A DNA stretch of 38,368 bases from a virus, in the IMG/VR virus record IMGVR_UViG_3300042503_002097, positions 1 to 38,368 of that record; one strand, given 5' to 3'. Position numbers and translations under genes: made by a program. The stretch's first letter is position 1. Every line of letters begins with the position of its first letter. Positions 4,681-38,368 of this stretch are shown here, in pieces. The notes below the pieces were generated by a model. The model searched no databases. It was not told the origin of the DNA and worked only from the letters and a program-made list of their open reading frames with translations.

Positions 4681-5021
4681 ATGCCGAGCTCCAATGCTTG
4701 TACTTTTTCTTCAAGTTCCGATATCCTGGCGATTAGCTCAGAGGTTCCTGTTGTCTCCGGCTTGACCCTCATTGAGCCAAGAACTATGAGTTCCGTAAAG
4801 AATTCATTAGTAAAAGTACATACAACGGGGTCCCCAACAGAATACTGGCTTGGAGATAGAGCGTTTACTGGAAATAATGGCCCATGTCTTGTTTCAAGGT
4901 CGGGCAAGGTTACGTTAATTTGCCCGGAATCAGAAACAGAAGTCACCCTGCCTATGTAAAACCGACCAGGGGCGAGCGGATGCGACGAAGACTTCTCTCT
5001 GTTGATTATGTTCGGCCGCAT
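4671..5021 (-). CDS. Baseplate spike/OB-fold protein (gpV/gp5-like N domain)
   Basis: This 116-residue protein has an OB-fold core (about 18-85: RFYIGRVTSVSDSGQINVTL, then GDPVVCTFTNE). That fold is typical of the N-terminal domain of P2 gpV, T4 gp5 and related spike proteins. A short C-terminal coiled coil follows (ELIARISELEEKVQALEL). The protein lacks the long beta-helical spike, so the membrane-piercing tip must be another protein, or this is a short form. It lies between the hub gene and the gp25-like gene, as expected of a protein that sits under the hub. An AGG sequence about 6 bases upstream of the ATG may serve as ribosome binding site. Confidence 0.75.
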   Translation of the reverse strand: MRPNIINREKSSSHPLAPGRFYIGRVTSVSDSGQINVTLPDLETRHGPLFPVNALSPSQYSVGDPVVCTFTNEFFTELIVLGSMRVKPETTGTSELIARISELEEKVQALELGIWT

Positions 5022-19150: not shown

Positions 19151-19708
19151 CTACCTGTCAGGATTGGGAGGTCTTTCAATTGAAAAGCTTTCACCAGTGC
19201 TTCCAGAAGGCGCCTCAATTGGAACCCAGGCTCTAGCGTAGTTGTGTTCTTTTATCTTTCTTGCCTTAAAAACACTTCCATCAAGCATTAACGAAAGTTC
19301 CTCGTTGCGCATGCACAAAGCGTCTTCAAAGATTCCAGACCCATATTTTCCAGAACGCTTTACATGGCGAACGATGTTTGACAGCTTCGCTGCCACCACC
19401 TGAGATGTTCCTCTATTGAGGCGCACATGGAGAAGCATGGCATCAACTGCGTCTAGGTCGTGGTAAACAACAGGGATTAGACCTGCTGTGTGGTCAAGAA
19501 TCTGACGAAGATTTGTGGCAAGAAGATATCTCTCTGAACCGTCAATTATCTCCCCAGTGGACTTGCGCACATGGATTGGCTGTATGAAACCATACTGAGA
19601 AAGAGAGGCAGAAATAACTAGCATCTCAGGACGGAGCGTATATGTTGCTTTCCATTCAGGAACAGAAAGAACCGAAGGGTCAACGTATTCTATTTCAATT
19701 TTGTTCAT
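19151..19708 (-). CDS. ParB-like domain protein (IbrB-like)
   Basis: This 185-residue protein has a ParB/Srx-type N-terminal domain. It contains ISASLSQYGFIQPIHVRK (33-49) and the box EIIDGSERYLLA (53-64), then LLHVRLNRGTSQVVA (92-106), a phrase common in ParB-like proteins paired with PAPS-reductase-like partners. The C-terminal ~65 residues are extra and basic. It overlaps the PAPS-reductase-like gene by 14 bases. That order, ParB-like plus PAPS-reductase-like, is the arrangement of E. coli IbrB/IbrA and of similar pairs in phages. The domain can bind or cut DNA, or use CTP. Which activity applies here cannot be told. Confidence 0.8.
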   Translation of the reverse strand: MNKIEIEYVDPSVLSVPEWKATYTLRPEMLVISASLSQYGFIQPIHVRKSTGEIIDGSERYLLATNLRQILDHTAGLIPVVYHDLDAVDAMLLHVRLNRGTSQVVAAKLSNIVRHVKRSGKYGSGIFEDALCMRNEELSLMLDGSVFKARKIKEHNYARAWVPIEAPSGSTGESFSIERPPNPDR

Positions 19709-20834
19709 CTTGATATTCCTCTATCTCCATCGACCTAATCGTATAAGCCCTTGTCTTCGGACCAACTGGCGTCGGTGAGTTCACGTCTATTTCATTGAGC
19801 ATGAGGTTACGCACTAGCCAGCTGATTGGGTATCCATGAGGGTCGGTAATATGTTTTTTTCTAAATTTAGAGATATAAACACGAGCTTCCATTTGTCTTC
19901 TTTCCCCAATAAGGTAGTCGTCAACAAACCGCGATGCTCCATCAAAACCTTCTCTTGCATACTGCTCAATGAGTTTTTCTACGTCGAATTCTGGCCATAA
20001 GCGTCTTTGGGCGTCAATGTATGGGAAGCACTCATATAGACGGTCATAGAACTCTGGTTCCGTAGCGATTACGTCACCAATCCTTCTAATCGCTGTTGCA
20101 TGAAGAGGTATTCCGATTCTTGTGTTGCTGCCAGTTGCAGAAGCCAGGTCGTAGTACTCGCAATAGTCGGCACCATGTTCTTCGATAATAAACTTAAATA
20201 CGTCGTTGGTGTTCCAGTCGTAAATAACTTTTGCAAACTTTAAAGGTATCCCTCTTTTGAGCTTGTAAGGGGTGTTGATGTAATTCTCGTGCAGTTTTTG
20301 AACTACGGAACGGTAGCGAACCATTGATTCACTTGCTCTAACCCCAGTCAAGAAGGCAACAGTGCCCTTCTTTCCTTGCATCGTGTAATAGTCAGTTTGT
20401 TCAGGAAGAGATACGCTGTGAGTTAAGCCAAAATTGTTTCCAGAGATAGCCCAAGGAGGCATATCCCTAACCCACCTGTCCTGTTCAAACCTTTCCTGGC
20501 TCCACAGAATTGTTGTAAGCCTGTGTCCAAGAACCCATACTTCAGCTGGATATGGAAGGCAATACCACTCCATGTCAACCCAGTCATAGTTTCTTACTTG
20601 TTCAACGTACTTAATGGTCGCAGGGCTGACCATTTCTTCGTCTCTAAAGATAACTTTTACTGGTCCGAGCCCACGTTCTTCATGAACTTCTTTCGCTAGA
20701 AGAAGAACAGCGGTACTGTCCTTTCCTCCGGAAAACTGAACACAGACGGTATCGAAAGTGTCATAAACATGACGAATTCTTTGCCTGGCTGCATCAACGC
20801 AGGACATGTCTAAAAAAAGACGCTGTCTTGTCAT
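19695..20834 (-). CDS. PAPS reductase-like PP-loop protein (IbrA/DUF3440-like)
   Basis: This 379-residue protein has the PP-loop SGGKDST (35-41) of PAPS reductases and related N-type ATP pyrophosphatases. GVRASESMVRYRS (164-176), the family's R-ES motif, follows. KVIYDWNTNDVFKFI (202-216) and the C-terminal region with RRIGDV match the IbrA/DUF3440 group. In the PP-loop superfamily ATP is split to activate a substrate. In phages such proteins have been linked to nucleotide or tRNA sulfur chemistry or to regulation, but the substrate is unknown. It overlaps the ParB-like gene, so the two are probably made in equal amounts. No catalytic Cys pair of classical PAPS reductase (ECGxH) is seen, so sulfate reduction is unlikely. 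Confidence 0.85.
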   Translation of the reverse strand: MTRQRLFLDMSCVDAARQRIRHVYDTFDTVCVQFSGGKDSTAVLLLAKEVHEERGLGPVKVIFRDEEMVSPATIKYVEQVRNYDWVDMEWYCLPYPAEVWVLGHRLTTILWSQERFEQDRWVRDMPPWAISGNNFGLTHSVSLPEQTDYYTMQGKKGTVAFLTGVRASESMVRYRSVVQKLHENYINTPYKLKRGIPLKFAKVIYDWNTNDVFKFIIEEHGADYCEYYDLASATGSNTRIGIPLHATAIRRIGDVIATEPEFYDRLYECFPYIDAQRRLWPEFDVEKLIEQYAREGFDGASRFVDDYLIGERRQMEARVYISKFRKKHITDPHGYPISWLVRNLMLNEIDVNSPTPVGPKTRAYTIRSMEIEEYQDEQN

Positions 20835-21033: not shown

Positions 21034-21915
21034 TTAAATCTCGATGTGTTGGTTGATGAAGTCGATTATTTTTTCTGCTGTTGTCGTTCCGGCAACTGCA
21101 GGGTCGGTGCGGAGCCATTTAATGAACTCGTACCATCTTGCCTGCTGTTGAGTGTTGTCAAAAACAATCGTATATTGGACAACAGCCTGTGGCGCAGAAC
21201 CCGGGGTAACAGTCGTGGAGCCTCTAATGACTGCGTCATTTTGGTCGACCCCTTCTCTCACATTTATCTGCTGATTTCCGTCTCTGTCTCTAGTAATGGA
21301 AACGGTGTTCATGTCGATTGATGGAGAAGGGCGCTGCGGTTCATCGTATGTCTCGTCGTCTTCATCTTGTTCTTCATATTGAAGAGGAGAATCTAGGCGT
21401 GCACTAGTAAAGCCATTACCGCTTGTTTCGGAAACAACAGGGGGAATATAGGCGCTTCCAGCCTCCACTACCTGATTGTCGTCGCGAATTGAGCGTTGTT
21501 CAATTTCGGCCATCTCAAATTCATCCCAGCCAAGCCCTTCAACAAGTTCTGGATAGAATTCATTAATCTCCATAACCATGTCGTTAAGAAGTTCTGGCTC
21601 GGTGTAACCAAGCTCCATTGTTCTATTGTCGGCAAGAGCAAAGGCAATGGCGCGCCTGTTGTCGACATCGTATTGAACAACAGCAATCTTGTCCCAGCCA
21701 AGCTTTTTTGCAGCCTGCAATTGGTGATTTCCTGCAATTACTGTCGCCGTTCCGTCTCCGTTTGGCCGAACAACAATCGGTTTTATCTGACCAAATTCAG
21801 CGTAAGAAGAGACGATTGCATCGACGTCTCCTTTGCGGGGGTTGCCCTCAAGCGGTTCAAGAGAGTTGATGTCAACAGCTAGAGACAGAAGTGATTCATG
21901 TATTCCGTTTGGCAT
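21034..21915 (-). CDS. ParB/Srx-like domain protein
   Basis: With the start used here the protein has 293 residues. The N-terminal domain (about 15-115) matches the ParB/sulfiredoxin superfamily: LEPLEGNPRKGD (20-30), YAEFGQIKPIVVR (38-50) and TVIAGNHQLQAAKKLGW (58-74), with GNH where many have GHG or GNR. The rest (about 130-293) is polar and acidic with a disordered middle, then a C-terminal helix pair with ARWYEFIKWLRTD. The frame starts at an ATG at 21942, but the ATG at 21915 lies directly after the upstream stop with AGG about 6 bases before it, so it is favoured. Similar proteins accompany phage methyltransferases or terminases. The role here is unclear. Confidence 0.78.
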   Translation of the reverse strand: MPNGIHESLLSLAVDINSLEPLEGNPRKGDVDAIVSSYAEFGQIKPIVVRPNGDGTATVIAGNHQLQAAKKLGWDKIAVVQYDVDNRRAIAFALADNRTMELGYTEPELLNDMVMEINEFYPELVEGLGWDEFEMAEIEQRSIRDDNQVVEAGSAYIPPVVSETSGNGFTSARLDSPLQYEEQDEDDETYDEPQRPSPSIDMNTVSITRDRDGNQQINVREGVDQNDAVIRGSTTVTPGSAPQAVVQYTIVFDNTQQQARWYEFIKWLRTDPAVAGTTTAEKIIDFINQHIEI

Positions 21916-21916
21916 T

Positions 21917-22252
21917 TTATACCTGGGCCCTAATATTTGCATTAAGTGTTCTTATGGCATCCATCGATGTTCGTACAGATGATAGTTTTTCTCTTTTTGA
22001 TTTGACAAGAGCTTCTGCACATTTGTATTCAAAACTTTGCTGGTCCATCTTGTAGTCAGCCCAAGCTTCGCGCTCTTTGATTGAACCTTTTGCCGAAAGA
22101 TACTCTTTTGCCCAGTTCGTTTTGTAAAGAGCTTCCTTTTTTGCATGGTCAAGAGCCAGGGTCTCAAACTGCTCGGTCTCGCGTTCAAGTATGTCCATGA
22201 GTCTTAGGAGTTCTTTTTCGATGTCTATCTGGCTAATTGGTGCATTGCGCAT
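21917..22252 (-). CDS. Coiled-coil protein of unknown function
   Basis: This 111-residue protein is almost wholly helical and charged, with long heptad-like stretches (DIEKELLRLMDILERETEQF, then KMDQQSFEYKCAEALVKSK). It starts directly at the stop of the RuvC-like gene and ends 1 base before the preferred start of the ParB-like gene, so translation is coupled on both sides. Its place next to a resolvase and a recombination block hints at a DNA-processing accessory role. I do not recognise the family. Confidence 0.7.
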   Translation of the reverse strand: MRNAPISQIDIEKELLRLMDILERETEQFETLALDHAKKEALYKTNWAKEYLSAKGSIKEREAWADYKMDQQSFEYKCAEALVKSKREKLSSVRTSMDAIRTLNANIRAQV

Positions 22253-27395: not shown

Positions 27396-29468
27396 ATGGG
27401 CTGGAACTCGTCTCAAAACAAATCAGTCGGACCTAGCGCCGCTAAAAATCTTGGCTACGGAGCCCCCGTATCTACAAACCCGTCACTGGTCGGCAAGTCA
27501 TATAGAGACTCGTGGGACATTGAGCGGGCATACCGAGAGGGTATGTCGAAGATTACGTGGGTCAACCGCTGTATCGATGCGATTGCTGGAAACCAGGCAA
27601 GACTCCCCATCATCCTGAGGAAAGACAACTCCAATAAGGGTGAAATAATCACCGGCAGAGAAGCAAATCGCTCCTCATTGCTTGAAATTCTTAACTCAAA
27701 AGCAAATATTGCTGAAAACTCGTTTGTTTTTAGATACAGAATGTCTGCCCAGTTGCTTCTTGGAACTCGCGGTGTTTTTATTGAAAAAATCAGAGGCCGA
27801 GATGGCGGAATTATTGGTTTAAACCTGCTTCCTCCACAGTCGACAGCTCCCATACCTCACCCCAAAACCTTTGTTTCCGGCTACGAAGTAACTATGCCTT
27901 ACGGGCAAAAAACGATACTCAAGCCTGAGGATGTCTGCTGGATTCGCCGGCCACACCCTTTAGACCCATATTTGTCTCTAACCCCCTTAGAGGCCGCTGG
28001 TGTCGCTATTGAAATCGAAAACCTGGCAAAGCTTTACAACAGAAACTACCTGCTTAATGACGGACGTCCGGGCGGTCTTTTGGTTGTTAGAGGCCAAATA
28101 GACGAAGACGACAAAGAAGAACTACGCAGTAGATTCCGTGGCAATCTGGGCAAAACAGGTCAAACAACGGTTATAGCCGCTGATGATGGAGTTGACTTTG
28201 TTGACACCTCTGCGAACCCAAGAGACGCTGCATATATCCAGATGCGCCAAATAACTAAAGAGGAAATTCTTTCATCCTTTGGTGTTCCAGAGTCCGTTAT
28301 CGGCAATGCCGCTGGTAGAACTTTTAGCAATGCATCCGAAGAAATTAGAGTTTTCTGGATGGAAACAATGCTCCCTCATTTGGAGCCAATCGCCAGAGCG
28401 CTTGATGAGCTGGACGATAAAAACTATGTTGACTTTGACACCTCGGAAGTGCCTATTCTCATGCTTTACAAGCAAGAGAGGGACCGGTATTTGATGCAGG
28501 AATTCCAGGGCGGCTTGATTAGCGCGAACGAGTACAGAACAGGTTCGTCACGCAAAGAAGTGGAAGCAGACCTTGCAGATTCGCTTTTGGCTAATCCGAA
28601 CCTCATTCCAATCGCTAACACGAAAAAGAAGATGGAAGAGAACGCCGCTCAGGTGCAAGGCGGAGTACCGGGAATGCCTCCTGGAATGCCCGGAATGCCC
28701 CCTGGGATGCCCGGAATGCCTCCGATGCCCGGAATGCCTACTGACGCCCCTCTCGACCCGAATACGATGCAGGGGGCTCTTGCGGCCTCGGCAGGCGGAG
28801 CACCAGCTGACGTCGCTCAGACAACCCTCCCTCCGGAAGCAGCAGGCATGGCGCCACAAGCAGCGATACCACCTCTTCCCGGAACAATGGCTAGTGCCAA
28901 CGACGGGCCAATGGAAACAAAATCTCTGTCGTACGAGGAAAAAACAGAAACCGCAATTGAGCGGTGGACGGAAATATTGTCGCGAGGACTTGAGAGAGTA
29001 ATCGAAAGACAACAAAGAGTAGTTCTTGAAAAAGTGGGCGGCGCCAAGGCCAAGAAGGGCCTGATGGCTGGAACTCTGGATATAGAAGGAATTATGTCCG
29101 TCGATGTCTGGAACAGGCAGATGGACGAAGACATAAAGCCAGTCATCTCCGCAATCATTAACGACTCACTAGAGAACCGTCATGGACGCTCGGCAAAAAT
29201 TGGGATAAGAGTAAAATCTATCCCTGCCAGAGACGTAATGAAGGCTGTCGAGTCTCACATGAACGCTTTAAAGAGCATAAACTCAGAAAACTTCGCTGAA
29301 GTAAATTCTTTGATGCTTAAGTCTTTCTCTCATGTTGATGAAGATGAAAGATTCTCTACATTTAGAGAAGGCTTGGTTGATATGTATACAAACTTCATGG
29401 CCAAGGAACAGCGTGAAATGGCCGAGAATGCATGCCGCGGTGCCTGGAACTTTGCTCAAACAGCATAG
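27396..29468 (+). CDS. Portal protein (HK97-type)
   Basis: This 690-residue protein matches HK97-type portals: VNRCIDAIAGNQARLPIILR (N-terminal stem region), PEDVCWIRRPHPLDPYLSLT with LEAAGVAIEIENLAKLYNRN, GGLLVVRG and later KEEILSSFGVPESVIGNAAG, the family hallmark. The core covers about residues 40-400. The C-terminal extension of about 290 residues has a Gly-Met-Pro run at 426-448, a low-complexity Pro/Ala/Gly linker, and a helical end. The portal makes the 12-mer through which DNA enters, and the extension may lie inside the head. The ATG follows the membrane protein gene by 7 bases. It is followed by a 109-base gap and the giant protein gene. Confidence 0.92.
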   Translation: MGWNSSQNKSVGPSAAKNLGYGAPVSTNPSLVGKSYRDSWDIERAYREGMSKITWVNRCIDAIAGNQARLPIILRKDNSNKGEIITGREANRSSLLEILNSKANIAENSFVFRYRMSAQLLLGTRGVFIEKIRGRDGGIIGLNLLPPQSTAPIPHPKTFVSGYEVTMPYGQKTILKPEDVCWIRRPHPLDPYLSLTPLEAAGVAIEIENLAKLYNRNYLLNDGRPGGLLVVRGQIDEDDKEELRSRFRGNLGKTGQTTVIAADDGVDFVDTSANPRDAAYIQMRQITKEEILSSFGVPESVIGNAAGRTFSNASEEIRVFWMETMLPHLEPIARALDELDDKNYVDFDTSEVPILMLYKQERDRYLMQEFQGGLISANEYRTGSSRKEVEADLADSLLANPNLIPIANTKKKMEENAAQVQGGVPGMPPGMPGMPPGMPGMPPMPGMPTDAPLDPNTMQGALAASAGGAPADVAQTTLPPEAAGMAPQAAIPPLPGTMASANDGPMETKSLSYEEKTETAIERWTEILSRGLERVIERQQRVVLEKVGGAKAKKGLMAGTLDIEGIMSVDVWNRQMDEDIKPVISAIINDSLENRHGRSAKIGIRVKSIPARDVMKAVESHMNALKSINSENFAEVNSLMLKSFSHVDEDERFSTFREGLVDMYTNFMAKEQREMAENACRGAWNFAQTA
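28671..28739 (+). repeat. Gly-Met-Pro repeat in the portal C-terminal region
   Basis: GGAATGCC-type units repeat in tandem and encode GMP/PGMP repeats (residues 426-448), ending in PMPGMP. This low-complexity stretch separates the portal core from a helical C-terminal domain. Confidence 0.8.
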
Positions 29469-29577: not shown

Positions 29578-30117
29578 ATGTCATCAGACGCGCTCGAATA
29601 CAAAGCATCATCGCTAGGCTCGTTTGAGTCCAAAGGTGCAGGAATAAACCTAGATGAGGCTCAAGGTATCGTTGAGTGCTTCGTGTCGGGAATCGGCAAC
29701 AAGGACTCCGTGGGCGACATTGTTTCCACGGGGGCTTTCACAAAGAGCCTCATGCGTCGCAAGCCTCGCGTTGTTTGGGGACACAACTGGAACGACCCCA
29801 TCGGCAAGGTTTTGGAGATTTACGAAGTCCCATCTACCGACAACAGGCTACCTCTAAAAATGAAGATGGCTGGAATTGGCGGCCTATTCGCTCGCGTCCA
29901 GTTCAACCTTCAGTCCGAAAAGGGTAGAGAAGCGTTTGCAAACGTAGCTTTCTTCGGTGAAGAGCAGGAATGGTCAATCGGCTACAAGACGCTCCGTGCT
30001 CAGTATGACCAGAAATCTCAAGCAAACGTAATTTTTGAACTTGAGCTCTACGAAGTAAGCCCAGTTCTTCATGGGGCAAATCAGCTGACAGGAACAATCT
30101 CTGTCAAGTCCGACATG
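29578..30117 (+). other. Domain: prohead serine protease of the giant protein
   Basis: Residues 1-180 match the HK97-type (S78) prohead protease. They contain GNKDSVGDIVSTGAFTKSL (40-58), VVWGHNWNDPIGKV with H69, QEWSIGYKT with S133, and LYEVSPVLHGAN (157-168). It should cut scaffold and other head proteins at maturation. LSSM at 185-188 closes the domain. Confidence 0.9.
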
Positions 30118-33100
30118 CCAGCAGGGGCTCTTTCTTCAATGAACGAGGAAGACATGACTCCGCTGGATAGAGAAGAGCTTGAAAAGCAACTGTCTCTCAT
30201 GTTGGGCTCAAAAGTTTCATTGATGGACATAACCGAGGATGAGATTACTTTTGCAAAGCCTTCAGCCGAAGGCGTGAAGCGCTATAAGTGCCATTACGGA
30301 AGAAATAATGGCCAATTCATGTTTGGGCCACCTCGTCAATTCGAGGCGCCAAGCATGCACCCTACGTCTTCCCCTGTCATGCCGATGCCACCAAATCAGC
30401 CACAAAGAATAGTGCGTCCATCACAGATGCCGTCGATGCCAATAGCTGTTAAGCCCGGTCAGAACGGAATCACAATGGTTCCTCTTCCTGCTGTTAGATA
30501 CGAAGAAAACACAGAAAGACAAAAGCCTTTCGACCCAACAAATCTGGACCAAGAAGAAACTGACCTTCGCGACGCTTTGTTGAAGATTACAAAAAGACAC
30601 GGAAAATTCAACGAAGACTCTGATGGAGTATGGGCTGCATATACCCCAGCCTCTAGAAATGAAGTGGCAAACATCGGCGTCAAGTGCGCAAACTGCGTAT
30701 TCTTCCAAGGTGGCAATAGCTGCAAGATTATAGACATGGAAATAGAGTCCGAAGGTAAGTGCAGATTCGCTGTCATACCAAAGGGTGTCGTTACCGGCAA
30801 TATAGTTGTGCGCAAATCAGCAGAGTACGGAATGGACATTGACCAGGAAAACTACCTGCACGAAATCGAATACAAGTTCCCCAATGACCTTGCAGTAACA
30901 AGCCTGAGAGGCGCTATTGGCAGAAGCCGCCGCGCTCGCCGCAAGTATAAGGACATTTCAGAATTCGGTATGCCCGGCGATGAGTACGACGGAAAGTCAT
31001 ACTGCCTTCCAGTAATGCCAGAGGTCGCATTCAAGGTAAAGCAAGCCCTTGACCCCATCTTTGAATTCCATGGAGCAGAAACATTTGTTGACCCAGATGG
31101 AATCGTTTTTAAGTCTGGAGTGTCTCTTGAGCTCATCGAAGCAATCGATACTGCGCTTGACAATCTAAAAAAAAAATCCTTAGGTGAGGATTTAGAAGAA
31201 AAAGCCGGATATCGGCTCGGTAGAGCCATAGGAAGCCGCATGATTGACCGCCCCACTATTGGTGGCGAACGACGTCGAAACAGAATTCGAGACATAAACT
31301 TCACTACGCCAGGCGCTCGCCGATTCAACCCATTTACAGCTGTCGACAAAGACAGAGACGGAATGGTTGGCGACGAAGAGTACATGATGGGCCGTCCCCT
31401 GATTCAAAATGACCCAACACCAAATGGTCCTGGTTCTATCAATAATCCAAAACCTTCTCCTGAGCAAGTAGCAAAACTGGAAAACGAAAAAAAGCCTTTA
31501 AGAGTTCGCAAGGAAGAAATAGTTCGGAATCTTCCTCCAGAAAAAAAGCCGAAAAAAAGACCCAAAACATCAAGCAAACTTCCTTCGGACTATTTTGACT
31601 ACCTAAATAAACCAGAAAACAAGCGTTCGGAAAAAGAAAAACTTAAATTTGACGGCCCTCTTTACAAGTACAAAGAAGGTGACATTCTTTCGTCTGGTCG
31701 AGTTCTTGAGCGTGGTGACATGTTGGAAGAAGAGTCACCAGAGCTAAAAGAGTTCTACGCGAACATGACTCAACAGATGATTGAGATGCTCTCGGAAATT
31801 GCCAACAATCCGAACAAAAAGAACTGGACTCTCCCATGGAGAGACCCAGAGCATTACGCAAGAAATCCAATAACCGGACGCGTGTATCAAGGTTCAAACC
31901 AGTTGACCCTCATGCTCACAGCAAAGGCAAGAGGATACGAGGTCAACAGATGGGCTGGAGCTTCTCAGTGGAAACGCCTCAAAGGCAAGATTTCAAAAGA
32001 CGCCCGTCCGATGCCTGTTCTTGTTCCAATGGATGTAACGCAAACTGATATTGACGGTAAACCATTTAGTGAGCGCAAATACAAAGTTGAAATTGTTTAC
32101 AACATTTCGGACGTTCTCGGTCTACCAGAAGAGATGTACAAGGGTGTAGACGTTAATCAGATATCTGAAGAGGAACGCCTACAGAACCTGGAAGATGTTA
32201 TTAAGGAAATTGGACCGTCCATAAAAGAAACGTCCGGTTCTAGCGCCTTCTATCGCCCATCTACGGATGCTATCCATATGCCGGCGTTCACCCAGTTCAA
32301 TGACTCAACCTCTTACTATGCAACGCTCATGCATGAGACTGTTCACTGGACTGCGCACCCATCTCGTCTCAACCGAAAAGAAGCCAACATGGCTGTGCGG
32401 TTTGGGGATGAAAACTATGCTTTTGAAGAACTTATTGCTGAAATAGGCGCAGCTTTTGCTCTTGGTTCAATGGGCATTACTCCAACAATTAGAGAAGACC
32501 ACGCTATATATGTTTCTGGCTGGATGGAGAAACTAAAAACAGACCCAACAGCACTGCACAGAGCGCTTACTCAGGCACAGCAGGCAAACGACTACTTGTT
32601 GAACAAGTCTGCAACAATGAGAAGGCTCGCTGGAATTCCAGATGACGAGCGCAAGGGCAAGCGAGATGTTTGGACCGAAGTTCCAGGAATTATGGGCTAC
32701 GCCGATTCTCCATTGGTTCCGCCAACTAACACCATTTATGGACCAATTGAGGACCTCTACGATATTGATGAAGTAGATATTGACCCATCACTTATTCCAA
32801 ACCCAGAGGGTGAACTTTCTTACGACGAAAAACTCATCACGGCGACAGAATTCCGTGGCGATGTCGTAAAGACCGGACGTGATGGCTCTGTTATCGGTGC
32901 TGACGGACGTCTGTCTAGCGGCAAAGATTCTGGCCCAATTCGCGGAGTAGAGGGTAAGAAAGGCGTCCCCGAGGTCAAACGTGGGGATAGGTCTATTTCT
33001 TATCGCCGTGTATTCAAGCTTAAAGTGGAACCAACCGCTGAACAGAAAGACATCCTGGACCTGACGCTGCACCTCATTCGCAACAAAGACCCCCGCGTCG

Positions 33101-36100
33101 TGAGTGTTCTGGCTGGTGCAGGTACCGGAAAAACAACTACTCTTAAAAACATTGCATGGGCTCTTGAACGTGAATTCGACGTTCCAGATTCTGGAGAAGC
33201 AAGAATAGAGCACCTCAAATACCTGACTGATAGATATGGTATTTCTTTTGACAAGATGAGCGTCGATGAAGTGAACGCCGCCGTAAAAGAGCTTGCCAAG
33301 AAATACGAAATTGGCGACATGTACTACGCCGTTTTCGGAAAGAAAAATCAGCAAGAAGCAGAACTCGAATTCCCTGGCAATACGGGAGTCGCAACAACAT
33401 CAAAAATGTGGTATTGGTCGCTCGCTCTTGGTCAAGGAGACGAGAAGTACGGTAAAGAATTCAGAAGAAAACTTTCTGTTTCAAAGATGTCTCGTGACGG
33501 TTCAAAGACAACCAATTTAAAGAAGAATCCAGCTGCCGCAACTGACCCAGATGCTCCACCATTAATTCCACACGACTACACCGAAACAACTTTTGACGGA
33601 AAAACAGAAACATTCTCTGGCAGAAAACCTGGATTTGAAGAACTTGGGTGGAGAAGACTTGACGACGGCTCTAACTGGAAAGAATTTTTAAAACTTGCCG
33701 ATAGAGCAGACAAGATAATCATTACAAGACAGGAAAAAGTCAAGGGCGGCAAAAAGGACCAAGTACAAGAAGTCAAGATGGAAGGCTTTAGACTCCCTAA
33801 CGGAGCAGAAGTCACCGTCGATGAATTTGGAGACTTGTTCAACAAGGCAATGAGAAGATGGTCTCTCTCTGCTGACGAAAAAGCCACAAAAGAGATGTTT
33901 ACTTTGTCTGAAGTTGAGCTAGAGCAAAATGCTAGCGAAAAAGGCAAAAAGAAAATTAAAACTGGGGAAATAAGCCCAGTAGACGCTGATTTTGAAGTAA
34001 AAGAAGTCCCCCAAGAGTGGGTTGACATGCTTCAAGGGGCAATCGACGAGGTAATAGACAGAAATTCAAACATGCTGCCCACTAGAGAGATGGGTCCAAA
34101 GCTGTGGATGATGACAAATCCAGATTTGAGAACTGACCCAGGCTTAATTGGTCATTCAGCTACTTCGCTAATTATAAACAAAACAATTCCGAACACTTAC
34201 GGCGTAGGTGACACCTATGAAATAGACGGTGTTCAGTGGGTTGTTTCTTCAGTAAGCAAGCCTAGTAAGGCAAATAAGGGGACGCACATGGCCAAACTGG
34301 CCAAACCTTATGCAACAAAAGATAAACCACTAAGTGCGTTCTTTGTGGACGAAGGACAAGACTCAAACCCAATCATTGAAGAAGTCCTAAAGCGCAACAG
34401 AGAAAACCTTCCAATCATTCTTGTTGGAGACGACCGTCAAGGCGTGTTTGCTTTCAACAACGCAAAAAACATTTTGGCCTCAATGGAGCCAGACTATGAA
34501 CTTGAAATAACACAATCTTTCAGGTACGGAGACGTTGTAGGCCACTTGGGCAACCTTGTTTTGGCAAAGCAGAACATATATCTCACCAGCCAGGGCGTTC
34601 CTCAACCGCCATGGAAACACGTCAAGGGTGAGGCACAAAATACTGTATATAAAAACTTCGACGACCTTTTGCCGGAAGATGTAAGAGTTCTCAAGGACCT
34701 TCCAGAGCTTTCGCCAGAAGAAAGACGTGAAAAGATTCTCCACGTCGAAAGAACTTATTCAACTCCTGACAGGCAACTTGACATTGTTGACCTCCCTCTT
34801 GAAGAGCAAACAAAAGCTCTTTTGTCCCTGAGAGATGAACTAGCAGCACCAAAAGCTGGAAGAATCGTCGATGCAGATGAAGAAATCAAAAAAGGCAACC
34901 TGCCAACAATGATTCTCACAAGAAGCAATCGTCAAATCATCAAAGAAGCATCGGCCTTCCTTATGGCTTTCCTTGCTTCTCCGTCCGGAAAAGACAAAGA
35001 CGGCAAGGCGGTTTTGCCAGAAATTATTATTCCTGCCCAAAAACACAAAGAAATGATTGAGTTCGCCGAGCATCTCAAATACATTTTCCTCAGCCCCTCT
35101 CAAAGAAAAGATTATGAAACAAAGCGTGGCGGTCGACCTGTTGCTTCGTCAATCATTGGCCCGGTGTGGACGAGAGGCGAAGTAACACGCAAACTCAATC
35201 AGTCGCAGTATACGCAGCTAAGAACAATGTACAAGCTCATTATGGAGAAAGACCCAAACGACCCAAATAGCACTGCGCTTGGTGTTAATGGTCTTCTTAC
35301 TCTCCTAAATGGAGCCGTCAAGAGAGAAACTGACGACAAAGGCAAATCGAAGCTAAGAGTAATACCCCCAACACTCATTGCTGAACGTGAAACATTAACT
35401 TTGCCAAAATTTGCTGTCAGCGTTGACCAAGTGAAAAACGCAGCAAATGCAAAAACGGTAAAGAAAAACGTTAGGGCAGGACAAGATAATCAGCTAGAAA
35501 AATTCCTTATTCTTCCACCTAGCGACAATAAGGATAAACACGGAGTTTACGCTCAGTTGGAAATAATTGGAGGAAGCGAAAAATCCCCCGGAAAAGCCAC
35601 TGGAAAAATATTTATAACTGGAGACGGAGCCGATACTGGCCGCCCAACAATTCTTGCAGACGGAACCGAAAAACCAATTTCCAGAAAAGGAAACGGAAGA
35701 TACAGAAGAGATTTGGAAAAGGCAATTGAACGCCTCGGCCTAACGGATAAAGTTAAGCCAGGAGAACAGCTCGCCCATGCCAGAGCGGACAGAATAGACA
35801 GGTCGTATGACGGCTTTGTAATTGATGCTGGTTCTATTGAGGAAAACTCAAAAATACTTGCTCAGCTTGGAGATGCCTTGCGTGAAGCCGCAAGAACGAC
35901 TGGCGGAGACGTTGAAATAACCACAGCACAGTTGGCAAAGGGACGCGAGTCTCGTTTTGTAAAACTAGCCGAAGACTTCATGGACCCCATGGAGGTCTTT
36001 GCGGAGAAGCCGCGAGGAATGTCGGCCATCAACTGGATGGAGGAAACAAACCTTGTATATGTTGCCCTCACTCGCGCTCAGGAAATGATTGACCCAGGTA

Positions 36101-38202
36101 GCCAGGTATTCAAGATTTACCTTGCCGACAATGTAACCGAAAACCAAAGAAAAGAAATGGCCGCCGCTGCAAAACGTGGCGACTTGCCTGAAGACCTTGA
36201 TAAGGGCGCTTTTGCTGATGGAAAAATTTCTTTGCCTGAAAAGTACAAAGCAATCAATGAAGGAAGAAACACAGCCGGAAGTCCTCCAGAAGAAGATAAT
36301 GAAAAAATCGTCATCCCCGACTCCATTGGGGAAACAGAAGAAATTGACGATGTCGAAATCCCGAAAGACGAAGAAGAACTGGTATTGCCAGAAGGTGAAG
36401 AAAACATTGACGACGTCATAGACCAAGAAGATGAAAGTGAAATTCTTGACTCAACGGACGATGGCGAAGAAGACGACAATATTGACGACTTTGATGCAGT
36501 GCTTGAGGAGTTTGATGGTCTTTCATCTGGTCGTGCGTCTGCTGCCTCGGCATCAAGGTTGTCTAGCGGACAAACGGGCGGACGCTCGTCTCGTCGAGTA
36601 TCTCGTTCAGGCCGTGTAAAGACCTCTGGAGGTCGCCCAAGCCCAAGAATGATTGCAGGATTCAGGTTAAGCGGACAGGACAGTGAAGGAAACCCAACGA
36701 ACCCTGCAAACAATCCTCGTTTGCGTAGAGCTCTTGGATTTGCAATGAACGTCTGGGATGAATTTAGAAAGACAGGAATCGTTCTAGATACTGACTCACA
36801 GAAAACCAGCATGGGTCGCCGCGATTCAATCAAGACGGGCATGAACAACGTCAAAAACAGAATTGGCAAAAAGCCAAACATCTCTGTTGGCAACGTTCTT
36901 GATAACGAAAGAAACGAAAACCCATCTGCAGCTACATGGATGCTTTCCGTAGACAAGCTCAGAGACACGATAAGAATCCCAACCGAATATTCCGTTGTCG
37001 AGAGATATGGTGAATTCTCTGGACAAAGAGACATCGCTTGGACTCAGTCTCGCCCAATATCGGTAGAAGAGCTTGCTGACATGCTGAGTCTTGACGGCGA
37101 AAATGCAAAGAAGTTAGGCGAGCCTAACGCTGGCATTAGCCACGATGCAGTGAGAACCCTCATTGGTGAAATAGGACGAGAAGAAGCTTTCCCAGGTTGG
37201 AAGCTTTTCTCTCCCGTTACCCCCAACGATAAGGTGACAGAAATTGACGACGCCGGCGAAGAGGTTGAGCGCGCGCTAACTGATGCTGAAAAGATGGAAG
37301 AAGTTCTCGGCAGAGCAAATATGCGTGACAGATTCATTGTCGAAACATTTGGCTCTGACGCATATCCGTTCTGGTGGGATACCGACGAAAGTCGAGCAAT
37401 GACCCCCGAGGAATACAGAGACCTCGGAGAGGTAAGTGCTGCTTCGAAGTTTATGGCGGGCGGAATGTTTGACAAAGATGACCCCGTAGCTGGGGACTCA
37501 GATGTTGAAGCCGACTATTACCTTGAAGGGTTTGAGGGTGTAGACATCCCTGCTGTTGAGGAAAACGTAACAGCAGAAGAGCTAAAAGCAGACAAAACCT
37601 CTCGCAAGGACTTTGAGCTTTCCAACCTTCTTGGATATCTCGGAATAAGCAGAGACGAGTGGGCCGCGACCCTGAAAGAGCGCCTAAAAGGCTCTTTTGG
37701 AATGGAAGACGTAGGACTCAATAGCACGGAAGCTGTTAAGAGTTGGGAAAATGAAGGCGTCCCCATTGCCTACATTAGTCAAATGATAAAAACTGGACTC
37801 ATTCCTAGCGCTGGAACAATTTGGGGCGGGAAAACTGGTTCTGATGGAAAGAAGACTGGCCCTGGCATTCGACTAGACACAGAGCTTTCTAGAAAGAAAT
37901 ACGTTGTGTACCAAGCTCTAGCCGACTTCCTGAATAAGACATCCCCTGGGAAAGTCAGCCGTGACGTGCGCAAAGAGATATCCGGAGAAAGCGGAATCGA
38001 TACCGTGCTGGATGCAGCGAAAAAGGCCAAGGGAGCAGGGTTCTCCGCCAAAAAAGGAGACGAACCTCGCTTCAGCGACAATCAACTGCAAGAGATAGTC
38101 AATCGTTTTAACAAAAGATTTGACACCAACTACACGATTGAAGACATCTTCAGCGCTGAACAGCTAGAAGCCGCACGCAAGAAAATAGAAGAAGCAGAAT
38201 AA
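29578..38202 (+). CDS. Giant polyvalent protein: prohead protease, ArdC-like, SF1 helicase
   Basis: This 2874-residue protein is far longer than the usual ~200-residue prohead protease. In order it holds an HK97-type serine protease (about 1-180; H69, S133, E159 or H165), a Pro/Met-rich linker, a four-Cys motif (C370-C395), an EF-hand loop (590-601), an ArdC-like antirestriction module (about 722-1045; HETVH at 919-923), a UvrD/Fbh1-like helicase (about 1140-2200), an acidic linker (about 2245-2312), a Ser/Arg/Gly-rich stretch and an unknown C-terminus (about 2341-2874). LSSG motifs at 704, 1112, 2315 and 2328 lie between the parts. The gene lies directly after the portal, the standard protease place. 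It is inferred to be a precursor that the protease domain may cut, so that parts are carried in the head and injected. Confidence 0.9.
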   Translation: MSSDALEYKASSLGSFESKGAGINLDEAQGIVECFVSGIGNKDSVGDIVSTGAFTKSLMRRKPRVVWGHNWNDPIGKVLEIYEVPSTDNRLPLKMKMAGIGGLFARVQFNLQSEKGREAFANVAFFGEEQEWSIGYKTLRAQYDQKSQANVIFELELYEVSPVLHGANQLTGTISVKSDMPAGALSSMNEEDMTPLDREELEKQLSLMLGSKVSLMDITEDEITFAKPSAEGVKRYKCHYGRNNGQFMFGPPRQFEAPSMHPTSSPVMPMPPNQPQRIVRPSQMPSMPIAVKPGQNGITMVPLPAVRYEENTERQKPFDPTNLDQEETDLRDALLKITKRHGKFNEDSDGVWAAYTPASRNEVANIGVKCANCVFFQGGNSCKIIDMEIESEGKCRFAVIPKGVVTGNIVVRKSAEYGMDIDQENYLHEIEYKFPNDLAVTSLRGAIGRSRRARRKYKDISEFGMPGDEYDGKSYCLPVMPEVAFKVKQALDPIFEFHGAETFVDPDGIVFKSGVSLELIEAIDTALDNLKKKSLGEDLEEKAGYRLGRAIGSRMIDRPTIGGERRRNRIRDINFTTPGARRFNPFTAVDKDRDGMVGDEEYMMGRPLIQNDPTPNGPGSINNPKPSPEQVAKLENEKKPLRVRKEEIVRNLPPEKKPKKRPKTSSKLPSDYFDYLNKPENKRSEKEKLKFDGPLYKYKEGDILSSGRVLERGDMLEEESPELKEFYANMTQQMIEMLSEIANNPNKKNWTLPWRDPEHYARNPITGRVYQGSNQLTLMLTAKARGYEVNRWAGASQWKRLKGKISKDARPMPVLVPMDVTQTDIDGKPFSERKYKVEIVYNISDVLGLPEEMYKGVDVNQISEEERLQNLEDVIKEIGPSIKETSGSSAFYRPSTDAIHMPAFTQFNDSTSYYATLMHETVHWTAHPSRLNRKEANMAVRFGDENYAFEELIAEIGAAFALGSMGITPTIREDHAIYVSGWMEKLKTDPTALHRALTQAQQANDYLLNKSATMRRLAGIPDDERKGKRDVWTEVPGIMGYADSPLVPPTNTIYGPIEDLYDIDEVDIDPSLIPNPEGELSYDEKLITATEFRGDVVKTGRDGSVIGADGRLSSGKDSGPIRGVEGKKGVPEVKRGDRSISYRRVFKLKVEPTAEQKDILDLTLHLIRNKDPRVVSVLAGAGTGKTTTLKNIAWALEREFDVPDSGEARIEHLKYLTDRYGISFDKMSVDEVNAAVKELAKKYEIGDMYYAVFGKKNQQEAELEFPGNTGVATTSKMWYWSLALGQGDEKYGKEFRRKLSVSKMSRDGSKTTNLKKNPAAATDPDAPPLIPHDYTETTFDGKTETFSGRKPGFEELGWRRLDDGSNWKEFLKLADRADKIIITRQEKVKGGKKDQVQEVKMEGFRLPNGAEVTVDEFGDLFNKAMRRWSLSADEKATKEMFTLSEVELEQNASEKGKKKIKTGEISPVDADFEVKEVPQEWVDMLQGAIDEVIDRNSNMLPTREMGPKLWMMTNPDLRTDPGLIGHSATSLIINKTIPNTYGVGDTYEIDGVQWVVSSVSKPSKANKGTHMAKLAKPYATKDKPLSAFFVDEGQDSNPIIEEVLKRNRENLPIILVGDDRQGVFAFNNAKNILASMEPDYELEITQSFRYGDVVGHLGNLVLAKQNIYLTSQGVPQPPWKHVKGEAQNTVYKNFDDLLPEDVRVLKDLPELSPEERREKILHVERTYSTPDRQLDIVDLPLEEQTKALLSLRDELAAPKAGRIVDADEEIKKGNLPTMILTRSNRQIIKEASAFLMAFLASPSGKDKDGKAVLPEIIIPAQKHKEMIEFAEHLKYIFLSPSQRKDYETKRGGRPVASSIIGPVWTRGEVTRKLNQSQYTQLRTMYKLIMEKDPNDPNSTALGVNGLLTLLNGAVKRETDDKGKSKLRVIPPTLIAERETLTLPKFAVSVDQVKNAANAKTVKKNVRAGQDNQLEKFLILPPSDNKDKHGVYAQLEIIGGSEKSPGKATGKIFITGDGADTGRPTILADGTEKPISRKGNGRYRRDLEKAIERLGLTDKVKPGEQLAHARADRIDRSYDGFVIDAGSIEENSKILAQLGDALREAARTTGGDVEITTAQLAKGRESRFVKLAEDFMDPMEVFAEKPRGMSAINWMEETNLVYVALTRAQEMIDPGSQVFKIYLADNVTENQRKEMAAAAKRGDLPEDLDKGAFADGKISLPEKYKAINEGRNTAGSPPEEDNEKIVIPDSIGETEEIDDVEIPKDEEELVLPEGEENIDDVIDQEDESEILDSTDDGEEDDNIDDFDAVLEEFDGLSSGRASAASASRLSSGQTGGRSSRRVSRSGRVKTSGGRPSPRMIAGFRLSGQDSEGNPTNPANNPRLRRALGFAMNVWDEFRKTGIVLDTDSQKTSMGRRDSIKTGMNNVKNRIGKKPNISVGNVLDNERNENPSAATWMLSVDKLRDTIRIPTEYSVVERYGEFSGQRDIAWTQSRPISVEELADMLSLDGENAKKLGEPNAGISHDAVRTLIGEIGREEAFPGWKLFSPVTPNDKVTEIDDAGEEVERALTDAEKMEEVLGRANMRDRFIVETFGSDAYPFWWDTDESRAMTPEEYRDLGEVSAASKFMAGGMFDKDDPVAGDSDVEADYYLEGFEGVDIPAVEENVTAEELKADKTSRKDFELSNLLGYLGISRDEWAATLKERLKGSFGMEDVGLNSTEAVKSWENEGVPIAYISQMIKTGLIPSAGTIWGGKTGSDGKKTGPGIRLDTELSRKKYVVYQALADFLNKTSPGKVSRDVRKEISGESGIDTVLDAAKKAKGAGFSAKKGDEPRFSDNQLQEIVNRFNKRFDTNYTIEDIFSAEQLEAARKKIEEAE
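30685..30762 (+). other. Domain: four-Cys motif in the giant protein
   Basis: C370-x2-C373-x8-C382-x12-C395 lies in KCANCVFFQGGNSC...EGKC. The pattern recalls the small iron-sulfur (HiPIP-like) or zinc modules sometimes found beside phage prohead proteases. Which metal binds is unknown. Confidence 0.6.
31345..31380 (+). other. Domain: EF-hand-type calcium loop in the giant protein
   Basis: DKDRDGMVGDEE (590-601) fits the 12-residue EF-hand loop with D at 1, 3 and 5, G at 6, V at 8 and E at 12. It stands alone and may bind calcium. It lies in the linker before the ArdC-like part. Confidence 0.6.
31687..31701 (+). repeat. LSSG motif 1 (LSSGR, residues 704-708)
   Basis: It lies 14 residues before the ArdC-like domain, in GDILSSGRVLERGD. 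It is a candidate processing site or linker repeat. Confidence 0.55.
31741..32712 (+). other. Domain: ArdC-like antirestriction module
   Basis: Residues 722-1045 match ArdC-type proteins. The N-terminal ssDNA-binding part has FYANMTQQMIEMLSEI, then TLPWRDPEHYARNPITGRVY and GSNQLTLML. The zincin part has MHETVHWTAHPSRLNR with the HETVH zinc site (919-923) and YAFEELIAEIGAAFA (947-961), with the third ligand among its Glu residues. ArdC proteins protect entering DNA from restriction in plasmids and phages. Confidence 0.85.
32911..32925 (+). repeat. LSSG motif 2 (LSSGK, residues 1112-1116)
   Basis: It lies between the ArdC-like part and the helicase in GADGRLSSGKDSGP. It is a candidate processing site or linker repeat. 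Confidence 0.55.
32995..36177 (+). other. Domain: UvrD/Fbh1-like SF1 helicase
   Basis: Residues about 1140-2200 hold SF1A motifs: a Q-motif (Q1156), Walker A GAGTGKTTT (1180-1188), VDEGQD (1590-1595), LVGDDRQGVFAF (1615-1626), QSFRYGD (1646-1652), a motif V-like AQLAKGRESR (near 2115), and VALTRAQE (2162-2169). About 400 residues lie between Walker A and B, roughly twice the usual, with extra beta-rich insertion near YEIDGVQWVVSS. It should translocate on ssDNA. Confidence 0.88.
36520..36534 (+). repeat. LSSG motif 3 (LSSGR, residues 2315-2319)
   Basis: It lies after the acidic linker in EFDGLSSGRASAAS. It is one of two tandem copies before the C-terminal part. Confidence 0.55.
36559..36573 (+). 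repeat. LSSG motif 4 (LSSGQ, residues 2328-2332)
   Basis: It is the second copy of the tandem pair in SASRLSSGQTGGRSS. A looser RLSGQDSEG follows at 2363-2371. Confidence 0.55.
36598..38199 (+). other. Unknown C-terminal part of the giant protein
   Basis: Residues about 2341-2874 follow the last LSSG motif. They are polar, with helical stretches (LRRALGFAMNVWDEFRKTG; LSNLLGYLGISRDEWAATLK), a Trp/Tyr-rich stretch (DAYPFWWDTDESRAMT) and a charged helical end (FSAEQLEAARKKIEEAE). No known family is recognised. A scaffold-like or second antidefence role is possible. Confidence 0.5.
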
Positions 38203-38324: not shown

Positions 38325-38368
38325 ATGGACTACGACGAGAAAACCACGCTAAGCATTGACGGAGACGG
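38325..38368 (+). CDS. Start of a further head gene (partial)
   Basis: An ATG at 38325 follows AGGAG by 4 bases, and 14 codons (MDYDEKTTLSIDGD) are open to the window edge. Its place after the protease gene suggests a scaffold or capsid gene, but too little is visible to decide. The good ribosome site and the perfect -10 upstream fit an abundant product. Confidence 0.6.
   Translation, partial: MDYDEKTTLSIDGD

Follow-up and report, generated by a model that had tools for sequence, protein, structure and literature searches.

A prohead protease heads a giant polyvalent protein in uncultured tailed phages, with a conserved A-run at the junction of protease and cargo

RESULTS

One frame carries a prohead protease, an ArdC-like zincin, and a helicase

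We analyzed a viral contig of 38,368 nucleotides (IMG/VR record IMGVR_UViG_3300042503_002097, positions 1 to 38,368), here called the window. A first-pass annotation had described, directly after a portal gene, a prohead protease, an ArdC-like zincin, and a superfamily 1 (SF1) helicase sharing one uninterrupted frame. We found that this description holds. The gene is a single open frame with zero internal stops, and Pfam, PHROGs, and motif positions recover all three parts of its product, which we call the fusion. The PHROGs domain calls agree with those of Pfam, with the helicase assigned to PHROG 1967. Both H69 and S133 of the S78 domain are invariant across 34 relatives. The features are as follows; stops, loop, and short motifs were read from the sequence.

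27396..29468 (+): portal protein gene, directly upstream of the fusion (PF04860, 5.2e-50)
29578..38202 (+): whole fusion gene, 2874 amino acids, open frame; same architecture in relatives
29665..30111 (+): S78 prohead protease domain, residues 30-178 (Pfam Peptidase_S78, 1.9e-10), with the invariant residues H69 (29782-29784) and S133 (29974-29976)
30670..30783 (+): cysteine motif region, residues 365-402, with CANC at 370-373; kept in the main giant group, absent from the sister group
30814..31176 (+): U1 domain, residues 413-533; its hidden Markov model match is the extreme C terminus of free-standing proteases
31167..31176 (+): A10 slippery run, codons 530-533 (CTA AAA AAA AAA); conserved as A9-A11 in relatives
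31181..31183 (+): TAG stop in the frame reached by losing one A (predicted 534-amino-acid product)
31185..31187 (+): TGA stop in the frame reached by gaining one A (predicted 536-amino-acid product)
31345..31383 (+): EF-hand-like loop DKDRDG, residues 590-602; D590 nearly invariant
31687..31698 (+): LSSG motif 1, residue 704, boundary of protease module and ArdC
31750..32058 (+): ArdC-N domain, residues 725-827 (Pfam ArdcN, 1.6e-16)
32185..32565 (+): MPTase-PolyVal zincin, residues 870-996 (Pfam, 2.2e-39); HETVH, residues 919-923, at 32332-32346
32911..32922 (+): LSSG motif 2, residue 1112, boundary of ArdC and helicase
32995..36147 (+): SF1 (UvrD-like) helicase with insertions, residues 1140-2190 (motifs; PHROG 1967; Pfam AAA_19, residues 1172-1197, 5.6e-6; UvrD-helicase, residues 1587-1631, 1.1e-8; UvrD_C, residues 2099-2170, subthreshold at 0.041)
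33115-33135, 34348-34362, and 36061-36078 (+): helicase motifs Walker A (residues 1180-1186), DEGQD (1591-1595), and VALTRA (2162-2167)
36520..36570 (+): LSSG motifs 3 and 4, residues 2315 and 2328, boundary of helicase and C-module
36592..38193 (+): orphan C-terminal module (C-module), residues 2339-2872; conserved in 12 giants

The fusion is clade-wide and carries the only S78 protease found

With the full-length fusion protein as the query, we found no relatives among viral contigs, since the chosen patterns fell in variable parts; alignment of the portal succeeded. We collected 80 viral-contig loci in this way and fetched a second set with the protease module, giving 139 loci (L numbers below), which include repeats of one contig and near-identical loci. 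Every portal-derived locus of sufficient length has a giant frame after the portal, starting with the same protease. The frame is closed in 59 of the 139 loci, and in 56 of these it encodes 2891 to 3757 amino acids; the giants reach 4909 amino acids when longer stretches are taken. A stop or frameshift between the parts, which the first-pass annotation had named as the observation that would speak against a fusion, was found in the other three closed loci (L137, L164, and L170), and all three frames break exactly at the A-run. We rejected an assembly or frameshift artefact, since the fusion is clade-wide, and concluded that the fusion is real.

In each of 21 records, among them those of 148, 151, and 154 kb, the giant was the only gene to match the S78 family profile (PF04586), although records may be incomplete. 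A putative maturation protease does head the polyvalent chain, as had been proposed, and it is the sole S78 protease in sight. The chain would then have to be produced at the site of head assembly, in agreement with targeting to the head. The earlier remark that such a chain was undescribed also stands: in a search of 50,697 phage records, coverage of the fusion at any one place was at most 11%, and open-licence papers yielded neither a protease-headed polyvalent protein nor slippage in a phage head gene. The N-terminal position of the protease in a polyvalent chain thus looks undescribed within the records and papers searchable.

The protease module is constant, and the cargo behind it is exchanged

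In a tree of the protease domain from free-standing and fused proteins, all giants of the window type fall in one supported group (100/98). This group nests in a wider one in which free-standing proteases have 438 to 1071 amino acids and fused ones have 1350 to 2980. U1 is the protein end in free-standing relatives: with lengths counted from the preceding stop, it runs to residue 771 of 772 in L204, 667 of 668 in L219, and 630 of 631 in L227. The fusion chain continues past U1. In one contig (L184) of a lineage with a 2980-amino-acid fusion (L183), a TTA-to-TGA change at the end of U1 puts a stop at the same junction.

We searched 17 further giants with profiles of window segments and found that the head (S78, linker, U1, and EF-like linker) is constant and the middle varies; the C-module is constant in most of them. 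The position of ArdC differs, being directly after the head in some giants and C-terminal in L095 to L097; helicases number zero (L099), one, or two (L100 and L105). Pfam searches of 13 giants found S78 and ArdC/MPTase in 13, UvrD in 12, sigma-70 region 4 in 5, WYL in 2, and KTSC and RNase_T in 1 each. The cargo (sigma-70 region 4, exonuclease, second helicase) is thus swapped between relatives while the protease head stays constant. Sigma-70 region 4 domains recur in the middle regions of L096, L099, L101, and L105, which suggests that a transcription factor is delivered with the DNA.

The predicted structure of the C-module is of good confidence (predicted local distance difference test score [pLDDT], 80) and has zero matches in PDB or BFVD. 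That of the N-module is of low confidence (pLDDT, 60), and its search gave no useful match. We rejected homology of the C-module to Cantare gp11, as no match reached significance.

A conserved A-run with stops in both slipped frames marks the old protease C terminus

The A10 at 31167-31176 lies exactly at the end of U1, and no other run of A or of T in the window reaches nine nucleotides. Because U1 ends the free-standing relatives, the run marks the ancestral C terminus. Across relatives, we found it in 130 open reading frames, 29 of them nonredundant, always in the same phase (phase 2); its length among the 29 is A10 in 20, A11 in 6, and A9 in 3. Runs of A9 to A11 occur 129 times at the junction and at 11 distinct places elsewhere in all the loci. 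None of the 47 other KKK triplets of these genes is encoded by AAA throughout, though AAA makes up 57% of the Lys codons.

Counting codons from the one before the lysines, we found a stop within 7 codons after the loss of one A in 24 of 27 sequences, after the gain of one A in 22, and in both frames in 21. For the last count, random positions give a null mean of 1.0 (never more than 5 in 2000 draws), and synonymous reshuffling of the codons that follow the run gives 2.7 (never more than 8). In all 27, each slipped frame reaches a stop within 9 codons. Conservation of the protein immediately after the run is low (mean identity, 0.25). Thinning to sequences no more than 50% identical in this region left 16, and all of them have stops in both frames within nine codons (null, 0.089). 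We judge that the A-run is very probably a functional recoding site.

In the window, A10 gives the 2874-amino-acid chain, and the predicted A9 and A11 products end in ...LDNLKKNP and ...LKKKILR, respectively. The first-pass annotation had taken the full chain to be the sole product. This part is unsupported or incomplete: the conserved A9 to A11 runs and dual stops predict a lone protease too, made without cleavage. Three loci (L137, L164, and L170) have A9 and encode the short form in the genomic frame itself; to make the fusion, they would need slippage. A sequencing error may account for L137; L164 and L170 are mutually consistent. In a lineage without the usual run, L079 has an A10 at 4821, after the EF-like linker, followed on visual inspection by a stop in each slipped frame.

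[LF]SSG motifs lie between the domains

We counted 152 copies of [LF]SSG in 16 giants, of which 5 fall inside mapped domains, compared to 69.9 expected. LSSG alone occurs 3 to 13 times per giant, L104 apart, compared to 0.07 to 0.18 expected. The window copies (residues 704, 1112, 2315, and 2328) set the protease module, ArdC, the helicase, and the C-module apart from one another; all other genes of 90 amino acids or more in the window lack LSSG. Since [LF]SSG lies almost only between domains, it is a candidate processing site, and we give cleavage at LSSG slightly better than an even chance. The motif's position lends indirect support to the earlier suggestion that the protease may release the other parts.

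The genes around the fusion are those of a contractile-tailed phage

The plus strand of the window carries the portal gene and the fusion. Tail sheath, tube, chaperone, and baseplate genes of a contractile-tailed phage and a large terminase gene lie on the minus strand. By the portal, the closest named phages are Brevibacterium phage Cantare, Gordonia phages of the genus Bendigovirus, and Streptomyces phage Gilgamesh. Our search of genome contigs for a host gave a single contig of a metagenome-assembled genome labeled Phycisphaerae, which is probably a binned phage, and we assigned no host. One more gene begins before the window ends.

38325..38368 (+): first 44 bases of the next gene (MDYDEKTTLSIDGDG..., truncated where the window ends); by alignment, a homologue of the 485- to 595-amino-acid protein after the fusion in relatives

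We rejected this gene as that of the capsid protein, since the capsid gene sits further downstream. In relatives, that gene is of the HK97 type, is on the same strand, and encodes an N-terminal scaffold-like region; eight capsid proteins carry L[ST]SREIK[ST]IG near residue 100, at the expected boundary of a scaffold domain, and this too is a candidate processing site. Homologues of the next gene (L107:8054-9805, minus strand; L106:9183-10832, plus strand) encode an N-terminal Cys cluster, a long acidic middle, and PepSY-like repeats. Its C-terminal tail, DGSYPI..DLRNAIQAFGRAKDK..IPANW, is the prohead protease C terminus in Gordonia phages GMA6 and DalanDe. A second giant gene, of about 2000 to 2700 amino acids, follows (L107:2-8061, minus strand; L106:10799-18226, plus strand; L103:12117-19700, plus strand); it is almost without family matches and has 2 or 3 LSSG motifs. 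On the minus strand of the window, a PAPS-reductase-like gene lies between two ParB-like nuclease genes (19695-20834, 21034-21942, and 19151-19708), possibly for DNA modification.

DISCUSSION

We observed a conserved fusion with turnover of its cargo, an A-run with dual stops at the ancestral C terminus, and LSSG between the domains. The best explanation, which we hold with moderate confidence, is a head-loading polyprotein with a Gag-Pol-like logic. According to this model, the first ~533 residues would be the phage's prohead protease, laid out as in the proteases of free-standing relatives. Most or some transcripts would be read straight through to give the 2874-amino-acid fusion. RNA polymerase would slip on the A10 in others, so that one A fewer or more brings a stop within four codons and yields a lone protease of ~535 residues. 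The slippery run at the old C terminus would thereby keep a free protease. Because both products carry the protease module, they would enter the prohead together, as a pool of free protease with fewer copies of the fusion. In the head, the S78 protease or the chain's own zincin would cut the [LF]SSG linkers, freeing ArdC/zincin, helicase, and C-module, and the freed parts would exit together with the DNA, which they would protect or process as it enters the cell. Since the protease must enter every prohead and the giant gene is its sole source in sight, fusion to the protease is a natural way to load cargo, and the fusion is probably packaged in the head.

In retroviral Gag-Pol, a recoding site lies between the particle-building part and the enzymes, proteolysis takes place in the particle, and the enzymes reach the next cell. 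The likeness is one of working only, with no homology; the fusion belongs to a DNA phage, and its default is the opposite, with the zero frame giving the long product. We regard as evenly balanced the broader proposal that tailed phages have a Gag-Pol-like strategy, in which slippage on A10 would set the ratio of free protease to polyprotein and the polyprotein would ride in on the protease, be cut at [LF]SSG, and deliver, along with the DNA, exchangeable modules for antirestriction, helicase activity, and transcription.

Several points weigh against the head-loading model. At 318 kDa, the fusion would need much room in the head. We infer from sequence alone the slippage, the two products and their ratio, head packaging, LSSG cleavage, injection, and antirestriction and other jobs in the cell. 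A single A10 run in the window is no more than chance would give, and we rejected it as evidence by itself; the case for slippage is built on conservation. The run is absent from 12 fused rows of the tree, so the fusion need not depend on slippage. On the tree, the run needs a minimum of two changes, and its 26 carriers are largely of one origin; given this shared ancestry, the run statistics are guides and not exact probabilities. L104 has zero LSSG and three FSSG, and LSSG could be a linker signature rather than a cut site.

Proteolysis alone might separate the parts: only the full chain would be made, the S78 protease or the zincin would cut it at LSSG, and the A-run would be neutral or mildly tolerated. 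The fused sister lineages L095 to L097, L237, L077, and L183 do manage without the run, and only one of the main giants lacks LSSG, having FSSG instead. However, a neutral A10 should decay or shift frame, yet the run is kept in phase, all-AAA lysines are avoided elsewhere, and the dual stops are far above both nulls. We consider proteolysis alone unlikely.

Alternatively, ribosomes might shift frame on A AAA AAA, a known -1 slippery heptamer, with the same outcome of a short protease and a fusion. In L191 and L243, an A7 lies at the same junction, just after U1 (TCA AAA AAA GCA CTT AGG), with a stop in the -1 frame; it is possibly an independent frameshift site in these 1652- to 1667-amino-acid fusions and is the only suggestive slippery run at the junction among fused lineages without A9 or longer. 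The run itself points elsewhere. It is 9 to 11 nucleotides long and has stops in both slipped frames, which would be superfluous for a -1 shift alone. We found no conserved RNA structure after it (mean z, -0.73), and a Shine-Dalgarno-like sequence occurred in 1 of 29, so that the heptamer comes with neither the downstream structure nor the upstream stimulator of -1 frameshifting. This favors slippage by the polymerase, and ribosomal frameshifting seems a quite improbable source of the short product. Least probable, and in our view very doubtful, is that the fusion stays unpackaged as a cytoplasmic late protein acting in the cell that makes it (in replication, say, or in guarding new DNA), with the protease fused only for expression: free-standing ArdC genes are common in phages, but the only S78 protease found in the phage is in the giant gene, between portal and capsid genes, and the logic published for polyvalent proteins encoded near virion genes (PMC5512222) argues otherwise.

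How large effectors are loaded into heads, and in the right number, is poorly understood, and the answer may be in this gene: a protease that enters every prohead may carry the cargo, and a slippery run may set its amount. If the head-loading model is true, the protease module is a general head-loading signal, injected effectors can be found as whatever follows it, LSSG is a natural cleavage code, and DNA phages have a parallel to Gag-Pol. The protease-headed group is common and widespread among uncultured phages, with more than 570 stretches matching the protease module in one viral collection, which is a lower bound.

The same run-and-stop arrangement is established in dnaX of Thermus thermophilus, where a run of nine A has stops in both other frames and gives a short product (PMC5009743; PMC1088944). 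As in dnaX, the fusion gene has nine or more A, here conserved and avoided elsewhere, stops close by in both nonzero frames, and a zero frame that gives the full length. The two differ in that mRNA and protein products were shown for dnaX, compared to a sequence signature here, and in that dnaX encodes a DNA polymerase subunit rather than a phage protease and effector. A paper on a Campylobacter phage proposes slippage for a methyltransferase.

According to Iyer et al. (2017, PMC5512222), an assemblin-like peptidase in a polyvalent protein invariably occupies the C terminus, and one gigantic plasmid protein includes a UvrD helicase. The fusion shares with the polyvalent proteins unrelated enzyme domains in one chain, ArdC-N with MPTase-PolyVal, a helicase, a gene among virion genes, and cargo of the injected-effector type. 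In contrast, its S78 domain is N-terminal (residues 30-178 of 2874, and likewise in all the giants) and is the only one found in the phage; the putative slippage site and the repeated LSSG linkers are features not described in the parts of that paper covered here. As a C-terminal peptidase is the regularity described there, the N-terminal S78 makes the fusion a variant of the polyvalent proteins and not a nonmember.

The S78 proteases of actinophages (Gordonia phages Gray and GMA6 and Brevibacterium phage Cantare) share 40 to 44% protease-domain identity with the fusion, together with the portal family and the H and S residues, whereas in those phages they are separate proteins of about 417 to 484 amino acids. 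DalanDe gp27, of a Gordonia phage, has 1633 amino acids and, unlike the fusion, carries its protease near the C terminus. Streptomyces phage Gilgamesh has, after its portal-MuF gene, a 4624-amino-acid protein almost without Pfam matches (gp48; L009:479-14353), and its S78 relative is a separate "hydrolase" gene.
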